This document shows positions 14,041 through 55,723 of a stretch of 55,723 nt of DNA, one piece after another; position 1 is the first letter of the stretch, and the number at the start of each line of letters is the position of its first letter. The position numbers and the translations under genes are program-made. The DNA lies in assembly GCA_019694755.1 (NCBI GenBank), contig JAIBBI010000020.1, forward strand, positions 1 through 55,723, given 5' to 3'. Source of the DNA: Gemmataceae bacterium. GTDB taxonomy: Bacteria > Planctomycetota > Planctomycetia > Gemmatales > Gemmataceae. The notes below the pieces were generated by a model. The model saw nothing but the letters and a program-made list of their open reading frames with translations, searched no databases and was not told the origin of the DNA.

Positions 14041-17000
14041 TTACACGTTACCCGCGCTCACCGCCACGTTCGCGCCGTCGAGGCGGGTGTCGTAGGGGCC
14101 GGGGACGGTGTTTTGCAGGTTCAGGTAATCCTTGAGCTTGCCGCCCGAGGAGTCGGCCGTGTTCTGGCCGTTGAGGTAAACGCGGACGCGGGTCCGCCGG
14201 TTGAGGCCCGAGCCAACGTAGATATCGAGCAGGCCGTCGGTATCGGCCTGGCCATAGCCGACGGATCCGACGCCGCAGGTGAGAGCAAGTGTCGGGTCGG
14301 CCGCGCCGGAGCCGGGGCCGTCGTTGAAGAACTCGATGGCCGTCTGGGCGACGCCGGTCTTGCTGAGCACCTCGCCGTTGATTACCTTGACGTGGGCTCC
14401 GCCGCCGAAGCCCGCCCCGGTGAGGATGTCGCCGTACTTGTCGGGCTGCTTCGCGCCGTCGAGCGTATATCGGCCTACGTCGATGAACACGCCGTTCTGC
14501 GAGCCGGCATACGCCTCGAAGCTGGACATCGGGGCGTTCGCACCGGCTTGATTCAGCGTGTGGCCGTTAATCACTTTCACCGTCGTGGCCCGGCCCGCGC
14601 CGGGAGCCGTCACGATGTCCAGCTTGTCGTCGCCATTCACGTCGCCGACCGCGACGCGCACGCCGCCGAGGAAGGTCGGCTCGTAAGCATAGAAGCCGGT
14701 GAGTTGATTGATGTTCGAGTTCATCGGCTGGTTCTTGCTGAAGCCGAATACGCGGACGTCCGGCCCGCCGCCCGCGCCGGGGCCGGTCACGATCTCCGCC
14801 TGGCCATCGCCGGTGATGTCGCCCGCCGCCACATACACACCGCCCTGGAAGGTCGGCGTGTAGGCATAAAACTGGGCCAGGATGTCGTTGGCACCCAGCA
14901 CGCTGTTCGGCGGGAACTTCGAGTTGAAGATCCGCTCGCCGCGAATGACGGTAACGAGCGGCGGGGCGGCCGACCCGTTGGCCACGATCACGTCCGGGAA
15001 GTTGTTGCCGTCGACGTCGCCAATGGAGATCGTCGGAGCACGGTACGGCCCGAACGGGTTGGTGAATTGCGGGGCGGCAAGGAACGGTGCGGCCGGAGGC
15101 AACGTTCCGGTAAACCCGCCGGTGATCGGCTGGCCGTTCAAGGAACCATTGGCCACGATCTGGTACTGGTTGGGGCCGGTCTGCACCGCGGCCGCCTGGA
15201 TCGTCAGCCCGCGGATGTTCTCGATGCTCTCGAACAGGATCGGCCGGCGCAGTTCCACCGCGCCGTTGTTCGGATCCGTGAACGTGAACACACCATTGCC
15301 CTCGGCCGCATTCAGGTTCTGCAGGCTGACTCGGACACCCTTGATCACCGGGGTTGCCAGTTCATCGCCCGGAATGATCGGGCCCTTGTTCACGTCGAGG
15401 TTGACCTGCGTCGGCGTCGGTAGGCCGCCGCGGACGAAGATCGGCGTGGTCGTGCTCGGCTCGACCGCCAACACGTTGGAATTCGTGCCCGCGAAGATCG
15501 CGAAGCCGTTCACCGGGCTGGCGACGAGCTTGTTGTTGCCGCCGCTGTCGACCGCCCGGACGATCAGCGGGTACGACGTGGCCGCGCCCGACCCGTCGTC
15601 GTTGAAGCCCGTGCGCACTTCGCCCGCACCCGCGCCGAGATTGATCGACGTGACCTGGCCATCGAACGTGAAGCCGTCTCCCGTACGGAGGAACAGGTCA
15701 CCGGCCGTCATGGTGATGCCGTCGGTCCCCGCCACCTTGCCGATCGTCAGGCCACCCTTGGTGCGGGCCACCGTCAGGCCGGCATTGTTGCTGGCGAAGA
15801 GCGGGAAACTGTTGCCCGGCTGATCGAGGTAGAAGGTCCCCGCGCCGAGCAGGCGAACCCCATCGGGGGCGGTGAGGCTGCCGCTGAACTGGCCGACGCC
15901 GCCGGCGGTAGTGTTGAACGAAACCGTTGACTTCGCCGACACATTGGTCTTCAGATTGATCGAATCCGAGTTGTTCAGATCGACGAGTCCATTGGTCGCC
16001 GTGATGCCGGTGCGGACGCCGTCGCACACTGTCACGCTGTCCACCAGCAGGGCCTGCCCGTTCGTGTACTTGAAGTCGGTGCCTGCGATGCCCGCGAGGG
16101 TGCCCACGAGATTCGCGGCCGTCAGGTTGACATTCCCGCCGGCCGCGAGGGCCAGCGACTTCGCCGTGATGACGGCGTTGCCCGAAATGTCGCCGGACGA
16201 GCGGATGTCGAGCGTGTCGACGGCCGATCCGGACTTCTGACCGTTGGTCAGGTCAACCGGTCCGGCCACGGTCACTGCGCCGGAGGTCGATCGGCCGGCT
16301 TGCAGAATACCCGCGGCGACGAAGTCGAGTTCGGCGTCGCTGAGTTCCAGCGTGCCGGCCGAGCCCGGGTTGTCGCCCAGCACAATGGCGGTGGCATCGG
16401 TCCGCGGGTCGAGCATCACGCACGCGGTGGCCGCATTCACCTGCTGAGTAAAGTTCATCTCGTCGGCGACGATATGGATGTTCTTGCCGCCGGAGACGAT
16501 GCCGTCGATCGGACCGGCGATGACCGTGACCGTGCCCACCGTGATCGACGTGTTCGCCTTCTGCGTCACGTCCACCGTGCCCGTCGTCGTGACCGCTACC
16601 GTCCCGATGCTGTTGTCGTTCGCCAGCGCGACAGCCCCGCCGGCAGTGACGCCCAGGTTCGTTACCGATAGCGTGCCGTTGACCTTTTCCGATACGCCAG
16701 CCGCGCTCCACAGGTGCAGCGTCGGCACCTTCGCGTTCGCCAGGCTGATCGCCGACGACACCGTGATTGCCCCGGCGGTGCCGTCGCCGATCTGCAGGAT
16801 CTTCGCCGTGACGAAGTCGAGCTCGGCGTCCGTGAGATCCACGCCCAGGTCGATCGCCTTACCGGTGGTCGTCGTCCGGATGATGACATTGTCGCCCAGC
16901 ACCGGCTGACTGATCGTCAGGTCGTCCGCCTGCACCGTCACCACGTCGTTCGTCGTGTCGATCCCGTTCAGCGTCCCCAGCAAGCACAGCATCACCGACC

Positions 17001-20000
17001 CCAGCGTCAGCGCGTTCGCGTCCAGGTACGACACGTTGTCCTCGGCATCGATGCCAAGGGTGTCCACATCGTTGCCCGATGCCACCAGCGACACGCCCGT
17101 GCCCGCGACGATGCCCAGCTTGCCGACGACCACCGCACCGGGCCCCGAGACCGACTGGGCCGACTGGAGTTCCAGCGTCCCCACCGACTTGCCCGACACC
17201 TGACCCGACTTCAGGTTGATGTCCCCTGCGAACGTGATCGCCCCCGCGCCGCCCGAGCCGATCCGCAGGATGCTCGCGGTCACCTGATTCAGTTCCGCGT
17301 CCGTCAGCTTCAGCCCGGCCGTCTCCGCGCCCAGCGTCACGACCGTCCCGGCCGTCCGTTCCTGCAGGATCACGCAGCCCGTGCCCGCGTCCAGCACGTT
17401 CGTAACGTCCATCGTGTCCGACGTCAGAATGATGTTGCCGTCGTTCGTCGACACGATCCCGTTCCGCGTCGTGTCCGCCACCACCACCGAACCCACCGTG
17501 ATCACCTTGGCCGTGAATGCGAAGTTGTCCTTCGACGTGCCCGCGATCGTCCCTACGTCGTTCAACGAGTTCAGCGTCACCGCCCCGCCGCTCGACACCC
17601 CCAGCTTGTCTACCGTGATCGCGGCAGACTGCGTCACGTTCCCGCTCGAACGAAGGTCCAGCCGACCGATCGCCGCCGACACCTGTCCGTTCGTCAGGTC
17701 GATCGCCCCCGACACGTTCACCGCTCCCGTCGAACTCGTCCCCACCTGCAACAATCCCGCCGTGATCTGGTTCAACTCCGCGTCGTCCAGCTCCAGCGTC
17801 CCCGCCGTCGCAGGATTCGCGCCCAGCACCACTCCCGTCGATGCCGAACGCGGTGCGAGGATGACATTGGCCGTCCCGGCATTCACCTGCTGAGTAAAGT
17901 TCATCTCGTCGGCGACGATGTGGATGTTCTTGCCGCCGGAGACGATGCCGTCGATCGGACCGGCGATGACCGTGACCGTGCCCACCGTGATCGACGTGTT
18001 CGCCTTCTGCGTCACGTCCACCGTGCCCGTCGTCGTGACCGCTACCGTCCCGATGCTGTTGTCGTTCGCCAGCGCGACAGCCCCGCCGGCAGTGACGCCC
18101 AGGTTCGTTACCGATAGCGTGCCGTTGACCTTTTCCGATACGCCAGCCGCGCTCCACAGGTGCAGCGTCGGCACCTTCGCGTTCGCCAGGCTGATCGCCG
18201 ACGACACCGTGATTGCCCCGGCGGTGCCGTCGCCGATCTGCAGGATCTTCGCCGTGACGAAGTCGAGCTCGGCGTCCGTGAGATCCACGCCCAGGTCGAT
18301 CGCCTTACCGGTGGTCGTCGTCCGGATGATGACATTGTCGCCCAGCACCGGCTGACTGATCGTCAGGTCGTCCGCCTGCACCGTCACCACGTCGTTCGTC
18401 GTGTCGATCCCGTTCAGCGTCCCCAGCAAGCACAGCATCACCGACCCCAGCGTCAGCGCGTTCGCGTCCAGGTACGACACGTTGTCCTCGGCATCGATGC
18501 CAAGGGTGTCCACATCGTTGCCCGATGCCACCAGCGACACGCCCGTGCCCGCGACGATGCCCAGCTTGCCGACGACCACCGCACCGGGCCCCGAGACCGA
18601 CTGGGCCGACTGGAGTTCCAGCGTCCCCACCGACTTGCCCGACACCTGACCCGACTTCAGGTTGATGTCCCCTGCGAACGTGATCGCCCCCGCGCCGCCC
18701 GAGCCGATCCGCAGGATGCTCGCGGTCACCTGATTCAGTTCCGCGTCCGTCAGCTTCAGCCCGGCCGTCTCCGCGCCCAGCGTCACGACCGTCCCGGCCG
18801 TCCGTTCCTGCAGGATCACGCAACCCGTGCCCGCGTCCAGCACGTTCGTAACGTCCATCGTGTCCGACGTCAGAATGATGTTGCCGTCGTTCGTCGACAC
18901 GATCCCGTTCCGCGTCGTGTCCGCCACCACGACCGAGCCCACCGTGATCACCTTGGCCGTGAATGCGAAGTTGTCCTTCGACGTGCCCGCGATCGTCCCC
19001 ACGTCGTTCAAGGAGTTCAGCGTCACCGCCCCGCCGCTCGACACCCCCAGCTTGTCTACCGTGATCGCGGCAGACTGCGTCACGTTCCCGCTCGAACGCA
19101 GGTCCAGCCGCCCGATCGCCGCCGACACCTGTCCGTTCGTCAGGTCGATCGCCCCCGACACGTTCACCGCTCCCGTCGAACTCGTCCCCACCTGCAACAA
19201 TCCCGCCGTAATCTGGTTCAGCTCCGCGTCGTCCAGCTCCAGCGTCCCCGCCGTCGCAGGATTCGCTCCCAACACCACGCCCGTCGATGCCGACCGCGGT
19301 GCGAGGATGACTGCGCTCGTGCCCGCCTTGATCTGGGCGGTCACTGTCATCTCGTCGGCGGTCAGCGTGACGGCCGCGCCGTGAGCGTTGATGTCGGTCA
19401 GTGTGGCCATGCACGTGGGGACGGTCTCAATCGTCAGCGGCGTGTTGGCCTTATTCGTAAAGACGATCGCGCCCACGCCGTCGATGGCCAGGCTGGTGAC
19501 GGCGTTGTCGCCCGAGAGGTTCACGGCCGTGGTGGCCGCACCGGAGTTGGCCGCGGTCACGGCCAGGGTCTTCACGCCGATCGAGCCGCCGAGCGCGGTC
19601 ACCGTTTTATCCGTAACGATGTGGATCGACGGCAACTTGGCCGCGCTCACACTCACGGCGGCGGAGAGGGTGATCGCCCCCGTCGTGCCGTCGCCGATCT
19701 GCAGCAGCTTGGCGGTGATCTTGTTCAGCGATGCATTGGTGATCTGCGTGCCGATGTCGAGCGTGTTGCCGGCCGTGGCCGGGGTGATAATCACGCAATC
19801 GCCCAACACGGCCTGATCGAAGGTCGGGTCGGCACCGCTCAGAACGATCTGCTTGCCCGACGCATCGATCCCGTTGAATGTGTCGTCGCAAACCGTCACG
19901 CTGCCGACGGTGATGACCGTGCTGGTGTGAAAAGTGAAGTCGCCGCCCGACTTGCCGGCAATCGTGATCACCGCATTCGCGCCGGTCAGCGAGACGATAC

Positions 20001-50900: not shown

Positions 50901-53066
50901 ATGCAACAACGTATTCTCGACCACGTCTCCAAGACCGATTATCAACCCGTCAAACCCAAGGCGCTGGCGCGCAAGCTCGGCGTCCACGACGACGACTACC
51001 CCGATTTCCGCGACGCGCTCAAGGCCCTGATCCGCGACGGCAAGGTGCTGTTCGGACCGGGCCATAGTGTCAAACCCGTCGGCCAGCGCGACTCCATCGT
51101 CGGTACCATCAAGTTCCTGCCCTCGGGCCGGGCGATGGTCCGCGTCGCTGCCGCCGGCGGTAAAGCCCCCTACGAGATCGAAATCCCTGCCGGCTACGCC
51201 CTCGACGCGGCCAACGGCGACACCGTCCTCGTGAAGCTCGGCCGGAAGACCGGCCGGGGCACGAAGCGGTTCGGCGCGGTCTCGCGTATCGTCGCCCGCG
51301 CCTCGCGCCAGTTCGTCGGTACTTACCACGAGCGTGACGGCACCGGCCTCGTCCGCATCGACGGCAACCAGTTCGGCCACTCCATCATCGTCGGCGACCC
51401 CGGTGCGAAGGGTGCGAAGCCCGACGACAAGGTCGTCGTCGAGCTCATCCGCTACCCCTCCGCCGACGAGCGTGGCGAGGGAGTCATCACCGAAGTCCTC
51501 GGGGCCCACGGCGCACCGGGTGTCGACACGCTCTCCGTCATCCGCGCTTACGAACTGCCCGATGCGTTCCCCGAGGAAGTGCTCGAAGAGGCCCGGGCCA
51601 CCGCCGCCGCGTTCCGCCCGGACGATCTCGTGGGCCGGGAGGACATGACGGCCGACCTCATCGTCACCATCGACCCGGCCGACGCCCGCGACCACGACGA
51701 CGCCGTCTCGCTGACCCGCGACCCGAAGACCGGCCATTGGATGCTCGGGGTCCACATCGCCGACGTCTCCCACTTTGCCCCGCCCGGTAGCGCGCTCGAC
51801 CGCGAGGCCCGCAAGCGCGGCACCAGCGTCTACCTCCCGCAGCGCGTCCTGCCCATGTTTCCCGAGATCCTCTCCAACGGGCTCGCGAGCCTGCATGAGG
51901 GGCAGGTGCGGTTCACCAAGTCGGCGATCATGGAGTTCACCGCGGCCGGCGCGCCCGTCCACGCCAGGTTCGTGAACGGGGCGATCAACGTCCGCAAGCG
52001 GTTCACGTACGAGCAGGTCAGCGCGGCCTACGCCGCCCACGATGCCGGGAAGAACACCAAGCTCTCCGAAGACATACTCGAACTCCTCCTGCGCATGCGC
52101 GAGCTGGCCCTGATCTTCCGCAAGCGGCGGAAGAAGCGCGGCGCGCTCGAACTCGACATGCCCGAACCGGTGCTGGAGTACGACGACGACGGCAAAGTGA
52201 CCGGGGCGCACTTTGCGGACAACGACATCAGCCATCAGGTGATCGAGGAGTGCATGCTCGCCGCCAACGTCGCGGTGGCCAACCAGCTCCACGGCCTGCG
52301 CGTGCCGTTCCTCCGCCGGGTCCACCCCGCGCCGGACCCGCGCAAGCTCCAGGGGTTCGCGGCGTTCGCCCGCATCCTCGGCTACAAGATCGAGCGCGAG
52401 GTGGACCGCTTCTCGCTGCAGAAGGTCATCGACCAGTCGGCCGGGAAGCCGGAAAAGCACGCCCTGCACTTCGCGATGCTCCGCAGCTTGAAGCAGGCGG
52501 TGTACTCGCCGCACGCGGAGGAGCACTTTGCGCTGGCGTACCCGAACTACTGCCATTTCACGTCGCCGATCCGCCGCTACCCGGACCTGACGGTCCACCG
52601 CCTGCTCGACCGGTACATCCGCACGGGCAGCACGTCGGCCGACGAGGCCGAGACGCTGGGCCTGGGCGAGCACTGCTCGCGCACCGAACGCCGGGCCGAG
52701 GCCGCCGAACGCGAACTGGTCAAGCTCCGACTCATGGACTACCTGTCGAACCACATTGGGGCGAAGTTTCCCGCAGTGATCACCGGCGTGGCCGATTACG
52801 GATTCTTCGCCCAGTGCGAGACGTTCCCGGCCGAGGGCCGCGTCCACATCTCCACTCTCACCGACGATTATTACGTCTACGACGAGGAAGCCCACACCCT
52901 GCTCGGCAAGAAGTCGAAGAAGCGCTTCCGCCTCGGCGACCAGATCACGATCGAAGTGGTCCGCGTCGACCGTACCCGCCGGCAGGTCGACATGCGCGTC
53001 GCCGACGATCCGAAGCCCGAGAAGAAGAAGAAGGACGTGAAGAGCCCGCGCCGCAAGCGCGATTAA
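50901..53066 (+). CDS. rnr: Ribonuclease R
   Basis: 721 residues. An N-terminal winged-helix region (about 1-60) and cold-shock-like OB domains (about 65-240) precede the RNB catalytic domain. The metal-binding acidic cluster is IDPADARDHDDAVSL (about 254-268). The catalytic region further includes QRVLPMFPEILSNGLASL, HFTSPIRRYPDL and the S1 domain at about 610-697 (FPAVITGVADYGFFAQ). The tail is Lys/Arg-rich (EKKKKDVKSPRRKRD). The enzyme degrades structured RNA from the 3' end. Its TAA stop overlaps the stop of the convergent nadE gene at a shared TTAA (53063-53066). Confidence 0.95.
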   Translation: MQQRILDHVSKTDYQPVKPKALARKLGVHDDDYPDFRDALKALIRDGKVLFGPGHSVKPVGQRDSIVGTIKFLPSGRAMVRVAAAGGKAPYEIEIPAGYALDAANGDTVLVKLGRKTGRGTKRFGAVSRIVARASRQFVGTYHERDGTGLVRIDGNQFGHSIIVGDPGAKGAKPDDKVVVELIRYPSADERGEGVITEVLGAHGAPGVDTLSVIRAYELPDAFPEEVLEEARATAAAFRPDDLVGREDMTADLIVTIDPADARDHDDAVSLTRDPKTGHWMLGVHIADVSHFAPPGSALDREARKRGTSVYLPQRVLPMFPEILSNGLASLHEGQVRFTKSAIMEFTAAGAPVHARFVNGAINVRKRFTYEQVSAAYAAHDAGKNTKLSEDILELLLRMRELALIFRKRRKKRGALELDMPEPVLEYDDDGKVTGAHFADNDISHQVIEECMLAANVAVANQLHGLRVPFLRRVHPAPDPRKLQGFAAFARILGYKIEREVDRFSLQKVIDQSAGKPEKHALHFAMLRSLKQAVYSPHAEEHFALAYPNYCHFTSPIRRYPDLTVHRLLDRYIRTGSTSADEAETLGLGEHCSRTERRAEAAERELVKLRLMDYLSNHIGAKFPAVITGVADYGFFAQCETFPAEGRVHISTLTDDYYVYDEEAHTLLGKKSKKRFRLGDQITIEVVRVDRTRRQVDMRVADDPKPEKKKKDVKSPRRKRD

Positions 53067-55063
53067 CCGAGGTCCGCGAGCCACGCCTCGACCGCGGCGT
53101 CGGACGGCATGCGCCAGTCGCCCCGCGGGCTGAGGCTGACCGAGCCCACCTTCGGCCCGTCGGGCAGGCAGCTCCGCTTGTACTGGCTCGCGAAGAACCG
53201 CCGCAGAAACACCGTGAGCCACTTGCGGATCTCGCCCGGCTCATACGCCCGGTCGAACTTCGCCTGCGACGCCAGGTACAGGATCTTGGCCGGCGGCGCG
53301 CCGTAGCGCAGGAAGTGGAACAGGAAGAAGTCGTGCAACTCGTAGGGGCCGACCGCGCTTTCGGTCGACTGCAGCTTCCCGTCCGGCCCCGCGGGCAAAA
53401 GCTCCGGCGAGATTTCGGTTCCGACGATGTCGTGCAAAGTGGCCCGGGTGTCGCCGTCGAACTGGTTGTCGGCCACCCACCCGACGAGGAACTTCACCAG
53501 CGTCTTGGGCACGCTGACGTTCACGTTGTACATGCTCATGTGATCGGCGTTGTAGGTACACCAGCCGAGCGCGAGTTCGCTCACGTCGCCGGTGCCGATC
53601 GTGAAGCCCGTGTTCATGAGCAGTTGCGTGCGGGCCCGGGCTTGGACATTTTCAAACACCAGATCGTGGCGGCGGTCCGGCGGCACGTCGCGGAGCCGGG
53701 CGGTCAGCCCGTCGACATCGAGTGACCCGAGGGGGATGCCGAACGGCGCGTGCCCGAGCGCGCGGTACTCGTCCATGCAGAGCGGACGGATGTCGACCTC
53801 GCGGGCCGCCACACCGAGCTGGCGCATCAGGGCGATGGCGTTGGCGCGCGTCCGGCCCGAGGTGCCGAACCCGGGCATGGTCAGCGCCTGGATGCGGTCG
53901 CGGCCCACACCGAGAAGGTCGAATGTCTTGCAGGTGACGAGCAGCGCGAGCGTCGAATCGAGCCCGCCACTCACACCGATGGCCACCGGGGGCCGGCCGA
54001 TCTGCTCGAGTCGCCGGGCCAGCCCCGCGGTCTGAATCTGAAACACCTCGTCGCACCGCTCGCGCAGCTCGGCATCGGCCCGCGGCACGAACGGGTGCGG
54101 GTCGATCGCCCGTTCAAGTTTCGTCGGCAAGGTGATGCGGGGTCGGAAGCCGATCCTGCGGAACGGTCGACCGCCGACCGGGTAGTGGGCCGACTGGCCG
54201 TACGAGGTGATCGTCGCGCGATCGATCCGCAACCGGTCGATGTCCACGTCCGCGACCAGAAGCGTGGCCTCGCGGGCGAACCGCGGCGACTCGGCGAGGA
54301 TGCTGCCCGCTTCGCCGACCAGGCAGTGGCCGCCGAACACCAGATCGGTCGACGACTCGCCGACACCCGCGCCGGCATACACGTAGGCGGCCAGACAGCG
54401 GGCTGATTGATTGGCGACGAGCTGCCGGCGGTAAGCCGCCTTGCCGACCAACTCGTTCGAGGCCGATAGGTTGAGCAGCACGGTCGCGCCGGCGGCAGCC
54501 TGATGACTCGACGGCGGCACGATCGCCCACAGGTCTTCGCAGATCTCGATGCCGACCGTCAGCCCGTCGACGCCCGCGGCATCGAACAGCAGATCGGTGC
54601 CGAACGGGACCGTGCCCAGGTCGGAGAGTTGCACTTCGTCGGAGCGGGCCTGCGATGCCGGGGCGAAATACCGCGCGTCGTAGAATTCCTTGTAGTTGGG
54701 CAGGTACGACTTGGGCACGAGCCCGAGCACCCGCCCGGCCGAGACGACTGCCGCACAGTTGAACACCTGACTATCGATGAGGACGGGCAGGCCGACGACG
54801 GCGAGCCCTTCGAACTCGGCGGTCAACCGGGCGAACTCGGCGAGGGCAGCCGACGCGGCGCGGAGCAGCGTGGGCTGGTGAAACAGGTCGTGGCAGGTGT
54901 AGCCCGTGAGCCCCATTTCGGGAAAGGCGACGACGGCCGCCCCGACCTCGCGGGCCCGGCCGAGCAACTCGGCCGACCGGCGGGCGTTGGCAAGCGGGTC
55001 GCCGAGCGCGAGGCGCGGCACCGCCGCCGCCACACGGACCAACCCGAACGCCCCCGGATCCAT
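53063..55063 (-). CDS. nadE: Glutamine-dependent NAD+ synthetase
   Basis: 666 residues, the two-domain form. The N-terminal nitrilase-type glutaminase has the full Glu49-Lys118-Cys175 triad (AFPEMGLTG, VPKSYLPNY, IEICEDLW). The C-terminal ATP-dependent synthetase has the pyrophosphatase loop GVSGGLDSTLALL (SGGLDS at 365-370). It continues with GFGTSGRTRANA and GTGDVSELALGWCTYNADHMSMYN, and ends with the YKRSCLPDGPKVGSV segment. It converts deamido-NAD to NAD using glutamine as the ammonia source. Upstream (55075-55096) the repeated TGACA/TGTCA pentamers could be a regulatory site. Confidence 0.95.
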   Translation of the reverse strand: MDPGAFGLVRVAAAVPRLALGDPLANARRSAELLGRAREVGAAVVAFPEMGLTGYTCHDLFHQPTLLRAASAALAEFARLTAEFEGLAVVGLPVLIDSQVFNCAAVVSAGRVLGLVPKSYLPNYKEFYDARYFAPASQARSDEVQLSDLGTVPFGTDLLFDAAGVDGLTVGIEICEDLWAIVPPSSHQAAAGATVLLNLSASNELVGKAAYRRQLVANQSARCLAAYVYAGAGVGESSTDLVFGGHCLVGEAGSILAESPRFAREATLLVADVDIDRLRIDRATITSYGQSAHYPVGGRPFRRIGFRPRITLPTKLERAIDPHPFVPRADAELRERCDEVFQIQTAGLARRLEQIGRPPVAIGVSGGLDSTLALLVTCKTFDLLGVGRDRIQALTMPGFGTSGRTRANAIALMRQLGVAAREVDIRPLCMDEYRALGHAPFGIPLGSLDVDGLTARLRDVPPDRRHDLVFENVQARARTQLLMNTGFTIGTGDVSELALGWCTYNADHMSMYNVNVSVPKTLVKFLVGWVADNQFDGDTRATLHDIVGTEISPELLPAGPDGKLQSTESAVGPYELHDFFLFHFLRYGAPPAKILYLASQAKFDRAYEPGEIRKWLTVFLRRFFASQYKRSCLPDGPKVGSVSLSPRGDWRMPSDAAVEAWLADLG

Positions 55064-55486
55064 GCGCCGCCCCCTGACACTGATGTCATTGTGTCATTCC
55101 GGGACTTGAAAAACAACGAATGGCGAGGCGCATCCCCGCGGGAGTTGGACGGCGGGTGTTAAGTTGGCGACTGATTTTCGCTTCCCCTAGCCGCACTATT
55201 GCTCCGCCGGACCCACGAATCGCACGATATCAAGATTTCGGCCACAACACGAAGAAAGGGAAGCAGAAACTGCTTCCCTTTGCCGGATAGCGGACAACAA
55301 CAAAACGGAGAGGGCGGGATTCTATTCCGCCTGTTCTCGAATCCTACGGGAAACACGTCATACCACCTGAAAACCGCGGCAAACATAGCGGTTTGGGGAT
55401 TCGTGTTCATCGCGGTCGTCCTCGGCTATTTCGGGCTGTTTGGACCTCGAGATAGCACAGTTTCAGCACACCCCATCATCTTGGCC
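55064..55486. other. 423-base AT-richer region between nadE and the recombinase
   Basis: Base composition is visibly lower in GC than the rest of the window. It holds the TGACA/TGTCA repeats (55075-55096), the strong hairpin at 55255-55281, a single GCCGGATAGCGG unit like the nrdJ heptamers (55282-55293) and a smaller GGCGG...CCGCC inverted repeat (about 55313-55332). From 55175 the frame used by the recombinase is open without a stop; part of it (about 55390-55445) would encode a hydrophobic segment, ANIAVWGFVFIAVVLGYFG. No convincing separate gene was recognised. Confidence 0.4.
55255..55281. terminator. Strong hairpin, probable terminator or element boundary
   Basis: A perfect 12-bp stem AAAGGGAAGCAG / CTGCTTCCCTTT with an AAA loop. 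The arms end in T's or A's on either strand, so it can act in both directions. It is not next to a recognised gene end, which leaves its role open. Confidence 0.5.
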
Positions 55487-55723
55487 ATGGCGATACCGGC
55501 GTCGCCTGGCCGGCGTCGCCGGGGCCAAACGACCGACAAACGGGCCGCCTTCTATGCACGCTTCAGCTCGGATCTCCAAGACGCTTCTAGCATCGAACAG
55601 CAGTTCCGCAAATGCCGAGAAGCAGCGGAGGCAAACGGTCACCTCATACTCCCAGCGCTCGAATTCCGGGACGACGCTATTTCGGGAACGCGGGGGGATC
55701 GCGCTGGATTGAATGCCATGTTG
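55487..55723 (+). CDS. Serine recombinase (resolvase/invertase family), N-terminal part cut by the window edge
   Basis: 79 residues from the ATG at 55487, still open at the last base. After a basic leader (MAIPASPGRRRRGQTTDKRA) comes the catalytic entry AAFYARFSSDLQDASSIEQQ, matching the Y-x-R-x-S-(S/T)-x-x-Q motif with Ser27 as the likely nucleophile. Then KCREAAEANGH, EFRDDAISGTRGDRAGLNAML carry the conserved Arg/Asp positions of the serine-recombinase N-terminal domain. Large serine recombinases move phages and integrative elements. With the lower GC around it, this marks the probable start of a mobile element to the right. A GTG further upstream in the same frame cannot be excluded as the start. 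Confidence 0.85.
   Translation, partial: MAIPASPGRRRRGQTTDKRAAFYARFSSDLQDASSIEQQFRKCREAAEANGHLILPALEFRDDAISGTRGDRAGLNAML

Follow-up and report, generated by a model that had tools for sequence, protein, structure and literature searches.

A serine recombinase gene at a contig edge and the probable tRNA-distal end of a tRNA-Ser island in a Gemmataceae bacterium

Introduction

Islander-type genomic islands occupy tRNA genes (tDNA islands); one of their ends bears a displaced piece of the tRNA 3' end and the other the restored tRNA with a tyrosine recombinase beside it, and tRNA genes were stated not to be among the known targets of serine integrases (Hudson, Lau and Williams, 2014, PMC4383910). 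Large serine recombinases (LSRs), or serine integrases, such as phiC31, Bxb1 and TndX, combine a Resolvase catalytic domain with PF07508 and a zinc ribbon, and their genes lie beside an attachment site (Durrant et al., 2022, PMC10083194). Here we analyse a stretch of 55,723 nucleotides from a Gemmataceae bacterium (GCA_019694755.1, contig JAIBBI010000020.1; hereafter the window), at the right edge of which an original prediction, made from the letters alone, had placed the start of a serine recombinase gene and, as likely, the entry to a mobile element. Contig C6, one of 335 in the assembly (5.64 Mb, 97% complete), has the same extent as the window, whose right edge is therefore not a biological boundary.

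The locus resembles Islander islands in pairing a displaced tRNA 3' fragment at one end with a restored tRNA and a tyrosine recombinase at what is presumably the other, but it differs from them in its gene order: immediately inside the displaced fragment, as at about 20 related loci, comes an LSR gene. Such a position is unusual, since the enzymes known to insert islands into tRNA genes are of another class. As in described LSRs, the gene lies beside a candidate attachment site, and a paralogue on contig C245 has the three shared domains; unlike in those LSRs, this paralogue has an additional C-terminal helix-turn-helix (HTH; PF02796/PF13384) and no DUF4368 reported by Pfam, the reading frame has an N-terminal extension with an in-frame hydrophobic segment, and the associated core is the 3' end of a tRNA. 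CcrA/CcrB and XisF show weak similarity at the level of full families (NCBIfam, E 1.2e-8 to 1.6e-16), with scores far under the curated cut-offs (34-60 versus 375-900 bits).

Results and discussion

A displaced tRNA fragment and a serine recombinase at the window edge

The right edge of the window probably belongs to a genomic island that has integrated in the T-arm/3' end of tRNA-Ser(GCT) and would be its tRNA-distal end, with the window stopping 400 bases inside the putative island. The features on which this reading is built are, from left to right:

53063-55063, minus strand: nadE, glutamine-dependent NAD+ synthase (NF002730; NCBIfam, 854.8 bits), chromosomal flank to the left of the putative element
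55255-55281, minus strand: intrinsic terminator-like hairpin with a 12-bp perfect stem, a 3-base loop and a T-rich tail
55306-55322, minus strand: putative displaced 3' end of tRNA-Ser(GCT), CGGAGAGGGCGGGATTC, with 17/17 identity to the intact tRNA on contig C55
55487-55723, plus strand: 5' part of the LSR gene, 79 codons from an ATG and cut by the contig end, with the catalytic motif YARFSSDLQDASSIEQQ and matches to PF00239 and PHROG 95

The original prediction had proposed a search for attachment-site repeats, and a candidate is the 17-base copy at 55306-55322, upstream of the LSR. It corresponds to the last 17 bases of the tRNA, spanning the acceptor 3' strand and the T arm up to the T loop, and is the candidate core of the left attachment site, from which the element would extend to the right. 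A pattern search of the bacterium's own genome returned an exact match only at the 3' end of tRNA-Ser(GCT) on C55, and the other tRNA-Ser isoacceptors differed from the core by one base (GGA) or three bases (TGA). ARAGORN detected no tRNA anywhere in the window, and Rfam and tRNA scans of the window end gave no match. We take the hairpin to be the terminator that belonged to the original tRNA-Ser gene, since its orientation suits a minus-strand tRNA gene ending at 55306. On the chromosomal side, nadE is a core gene, present in 60 of the 61 genomes of the family.

Translation from the ATG at 55487 gives MAIPASPGRRRRGQTTDKRAAFYARFSSDLQDASSIEQQFRKCREAAEANGHLILPALEFRDDAISGTRGDRAGLNAML, with no stop codon before the sequence ends. 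This frame matches the Resolvase N-terminal domain PF00239 (E 8.5e-8, 32.9 bits, cut-off 23.3) and the integrase family PHROG 95 (E 8.6e-14), and it retains Y26, R28, the catalytic S30, Q34, S38, Q42, D65, S69, G70 and R75 (C245 numbering), which are all of the positions that are invariant over this stretch in an alignment of 20 related LSRs. The fragment thus contains a serine-recombinase catalytic domain with its R-x-S motif, as the original prediction had recognized, and by domain matches and alignment the edge gene is a large serine recombinase. The predicted AT-richer flank is also present: the 423 bases between nadE and the ATG have a G+C content of 55.3%, as against 66.3 +/- 2.8% in segments of the same size, and are the most AT-rich stretch of that size in the window.

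A full-length paralogue

The only other close copy of the LSR in the same genome lies on C245, a contig of 3.2 kb, and is full length at 712 aa, with 93% amino acid identity to the window fragment. It has Resolvase, Recombinase (PF07508, E 2.5e-17) and HTH domains, the zinc-ribbon cysteines C351, C354, C368 and C376, and all catalytic residues, including the arginines of the S-R-L-x-R motif (R100 and R103), a region that in the window copy lies past the contig end. The full recombinase with its zinc ribbon, which the original prediction had suggested looking for, is represented in the genome by this paralogue; the remainder of the window copy was not found elsewhere in the assembly. The two copies differ over codons 25-79 by four synonymous changes only, and codons 1-24 and the upstream DNA have diverged. 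An insertion sequence (IS) lies directly upstream of the C245 gene: an identical 127-mer, ending in GGTTTTGGGATAGGCTC, begins both C245 (1-127) and contig C72 (1-127), and is an IS end acting as an assembly fork at k=127. Position 55440, where homology to C245 starts, was considered as the boundary of the element and rejected, as the IS end (C245:1-123) cuts the homology on the C245 side.

Two outcomes named as contrary to the original prediction, an early end to the frame and the presence of the gene at this locus in all relatives, were not borne out: the paralogue's frame stays open for 712 codons, and none of 17 relatives has an LSR, or any recombinase, 5' of nadE, on which ground a core gene was rejected. 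A peptide-pattern search of GTDB genome contigs and viral contigs found no close homologue of the LSR. Matches in plasmid and phage records reached only 25-31% identity over about half the protein.

The partner end

The intact tRNA-Ser(GCT) lies on a contig other than C6, at C55:415-503 on the minus strand, in the expected orientation. On its 3' side (C55:2-448) a tyrosine-recombinase C-terminus runs towards the tRNA (HNLRSS...WMGH...KHYAQT; PF00589, E 1.1e-5; own HMM, iE 2.9e-30), such that the order from the contig start, 415 b from the tRNA, is tyrosine-recombinase C-terminus, terminator, core. Because C6, with the displaced fragment and the LSR, and C55, with the restored tRNA and the tyrosine recombinase, are complementary, we infer that they are the two ends of one island. 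The mobile element whose entry had been predicted gains support from both sides, from the tRNA fragment with its terminator on C6 and from the restored tRNA beside a tyrosine recombinase on C55.

Recurrence of the arrangement in other genomes

A tRNA-Ser 3'-end core, scored as present at no more than three mismatches, was found 170-390 b upstream of the catalytic start in 20 of 44 related LSRs, as against 4 of 2,087 control segments. It accompanies 14 of the 24 LSRs of the near subfamily (28-43% identity, C6 included) and 6 of the 20 more distant ones.

Two closed genomes give both ends of such islands, with the intact tRNA at the other end on the same replicon and in the same orientation, and the tRNA-Ser-to-LSR islands in them measure 85-145 kb. 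In G107, an 18-b direct repeat occurs at the 3' end of tRNA-Ser(GGA) (5353284), at 5403158 and at 5498613; tyrosine recombinases stand beside the first two copies, the third lies just outside the LSR, and the repeats bound segments of 50 and 95 kb. In G152, 85 kb separate tRNA-Ser(GGA) (5341577-5341664) from the LSR-side core near 5426990, and the homology that G152 shares with G107 breaks off precisely at two points, the tRNA 3' end and the outer margin of the LSR-side core. The G152 locus (L095) is likewise similar to its congeners L105, L106 and L108 from the core inwards, and unrelated to them outside it.

In G201, G032, G051 and G187, and at L091, a whole or partial tyrosine recombinase lies across the core from the LSR, which is the order that a circular form or stacked islands would give. 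A repeat of ~98 b around the core in G187 was considered as an LSR attachment site and rejected: it holds the tRNA terminator, the core and the start of the tyrosine recombinase, and is better read as the product of stacked islands.

Which enzyme integrates the island

Four observations weigh against an island with these two ends: C6 and C55 are linked by no read and no contig; no empty site came to light, the 17 relatives compared, all of other genera and with differing nadE neighbours, having neither tRNA-Ser nor the C55 genes beside nadE; about half of the LSR loci lack a recognizable core; and a local model detected no tyrosine recombinase in the G152 island.

Within the island reading, integration was most likely carried out by the tyrosine recombinase, with the LSR as a conserved companion. 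This is favoured because 17-18 b of identity that rebuild a tRNA fit the pattern of tyrosine recombinases, copies of which abut the same core at several loci and on C55. The circulating form would carry, in order, the tyrosine recombinase, the terminator, an attP core that copies the tRNA 3' end, and the LSR gene. Integration at the tRNA would then leave the displaced 17-base fragment beside nadE on C6, with the LSR just inside it, and the opposite end, on C55, would receive the tyrosine recombinase and the restored tRNA-Ser. The tyrosine recombinase would cut at the tRNA core, and the LSR may serve as the integrase of a nested or related element, or as a resolver of tandem copies.

Alternatively, the LSR might itself be the integrase, using the tRNA-Ser 3' end as attB and an attP just upstream of its own gene and restoring the tRNA, in which case the tyrosine recombinases would come from separate elements that have stacked up at this tRNA. 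An integrase adjoining its own attachment site is the usual layout of LSR elements, the core keeps a similar position upstream of LSRs whose identity to one another is no more than about 26-40%, and the G152 island, which scored no tyrosine recombinase, has kept an LSR C-terminal fragment beside its tRNA. Set against these points are the same tRNA-rebuilding identity block, the tyrosine recombinases abutting the core, and the absence of tRNA genes from the known targets of serine integrases, and we regard this alternative as unlikely. Slightly more doubtful is its extension to a planctomycete family of LSRs that integrate into and restore tRNA-Ser, perhaps with a membrane segment at the N-terminus whose coding sequence lies between the core and that of the catalytic domain.

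That the LSR is instead solitary or degenerate in an intergenic region, with the tRNA fragment and C55 as unrelated leftovers and no island present, is very improbable: only 79 codons are visible and decay is common in the family (the IS abutting the C245 copy, an internal deletion breaking the G152 copy), but the visible frame has no stop, retains every catalytic residue and differs from C245 in codons 25-79 only synonymously, and the tRNA fragment matches exactly, with a complementary arrangement on C55.

A recombinase at a contig edge thereby becomes the mapped end of an island whose partner end is predicted to lie elsewhere in the genome, and the layout of tRNA-Ser core, LSR just inside and tyrosine recombinase on the other side repeats in many genomes of planctomycete classes. 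Should the LSR prove to integrate at the tRNA, it would no longer hold that tRNA genes are used by tyrosine integrases only; should it not do so, it has to be explained why two unrelated recombinases are conserved as a pair around one core. With their predicted attB sites, the pairs of LSR and core are ready candidates for recombination tests.

An N-terminal extension of the LSR frame

No stop interrupts the LSR reading frame upstream as far as 55199 at least, and the true start of the gene is therefore probably upstream of 55487, with GTG 55403 and TTG 55481 as in-frame start candidates. Two features lie in this region:

55385-55441, plus strand: hydrophobic segment IAVWGFVFIAVVLGYFGLF, in frame at the N-terminus of the open LSR frame, with a hydropathy peak of 2.33
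55454-55470, plus strand: direct repeat AGCACA-N5-AGCACA, upstream of the catalytic domain, as in 14 of 22 loci

The first is a possible membrane segment, followed in the frame by STVSAHP and an arginine-rich linker, and hydrophobic segments occur at the same place in most near relatives of the LSR and rarely in distant ones. The AGCACA repeat lies between the hydrophobic segment and the catalytic domain at eight distinct distances in the 14 loci, all of them multiples of 3, which points to its translation as part of the LSR frame. Substitutions among four congeners are mixed for the hydrophobic N-terminus and do not separate conservation of protein from that of DNA; it is frame conservation alone that speaks for this N-terminus being coding.

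Neighbouring genes and further observations

Directly downstream of the C245 LSR (C245 2406-3196) are genes for a small membrane protein and for DUF1257-like and DUF2997 proteins. The DUF1257-DUF2997 pair also lies 3' of the LSRs at L112, L116, L117 and L118, with an AAA ATPase added at L112, L117 and L118; in cyanobacteria, a DUF2997-ycf35(DUF1257)-fed7 cluster has been described (PMC4284462). The module occurs once more on C253, where a contig end cuts it: positions 1-191 are 99% identical to C245:2377-2567 (the module start) but lie in a different upstream context. The LSR loci L113 (11272-15401) and L115 (12297-15507) share another module, comprising a ThiS-like (ubiquitin-fold) protein, a ThiF/E1-like protein, a small membrane protein and unknown families, and L113 also has a Cas3 gene at 16162-18000. 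PADLOC returned no defence match for the LSR or the DUF1257 protein, and its matches in relatives to IetA-like (the downstream AAA ATPase) and E1-E2 (the ThiF protein) were set aside as domain-level only. The neighbours of the LSR on C245 and at the other loci cannot be assigned to the element in the window. The cargo, for which the original prediction had suggested a defence or accessory island, would lie beyond the end of C6, and the evidence speaks neither for nor against a defence function.

Inside the tRNA-Ser island of G107, a tandem of two recombinases was observed (L163, 5400001-5420000): at 5405152-5408256, a tyrosine recombinase is followed within ~60 b, on the same strand, by an open LSR frame. 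Finally, contig C162 carries at 2561-2671 (L052) a diverged copy (83%) of the nadE 5' end (window 54994-55105), an old partial duplication.
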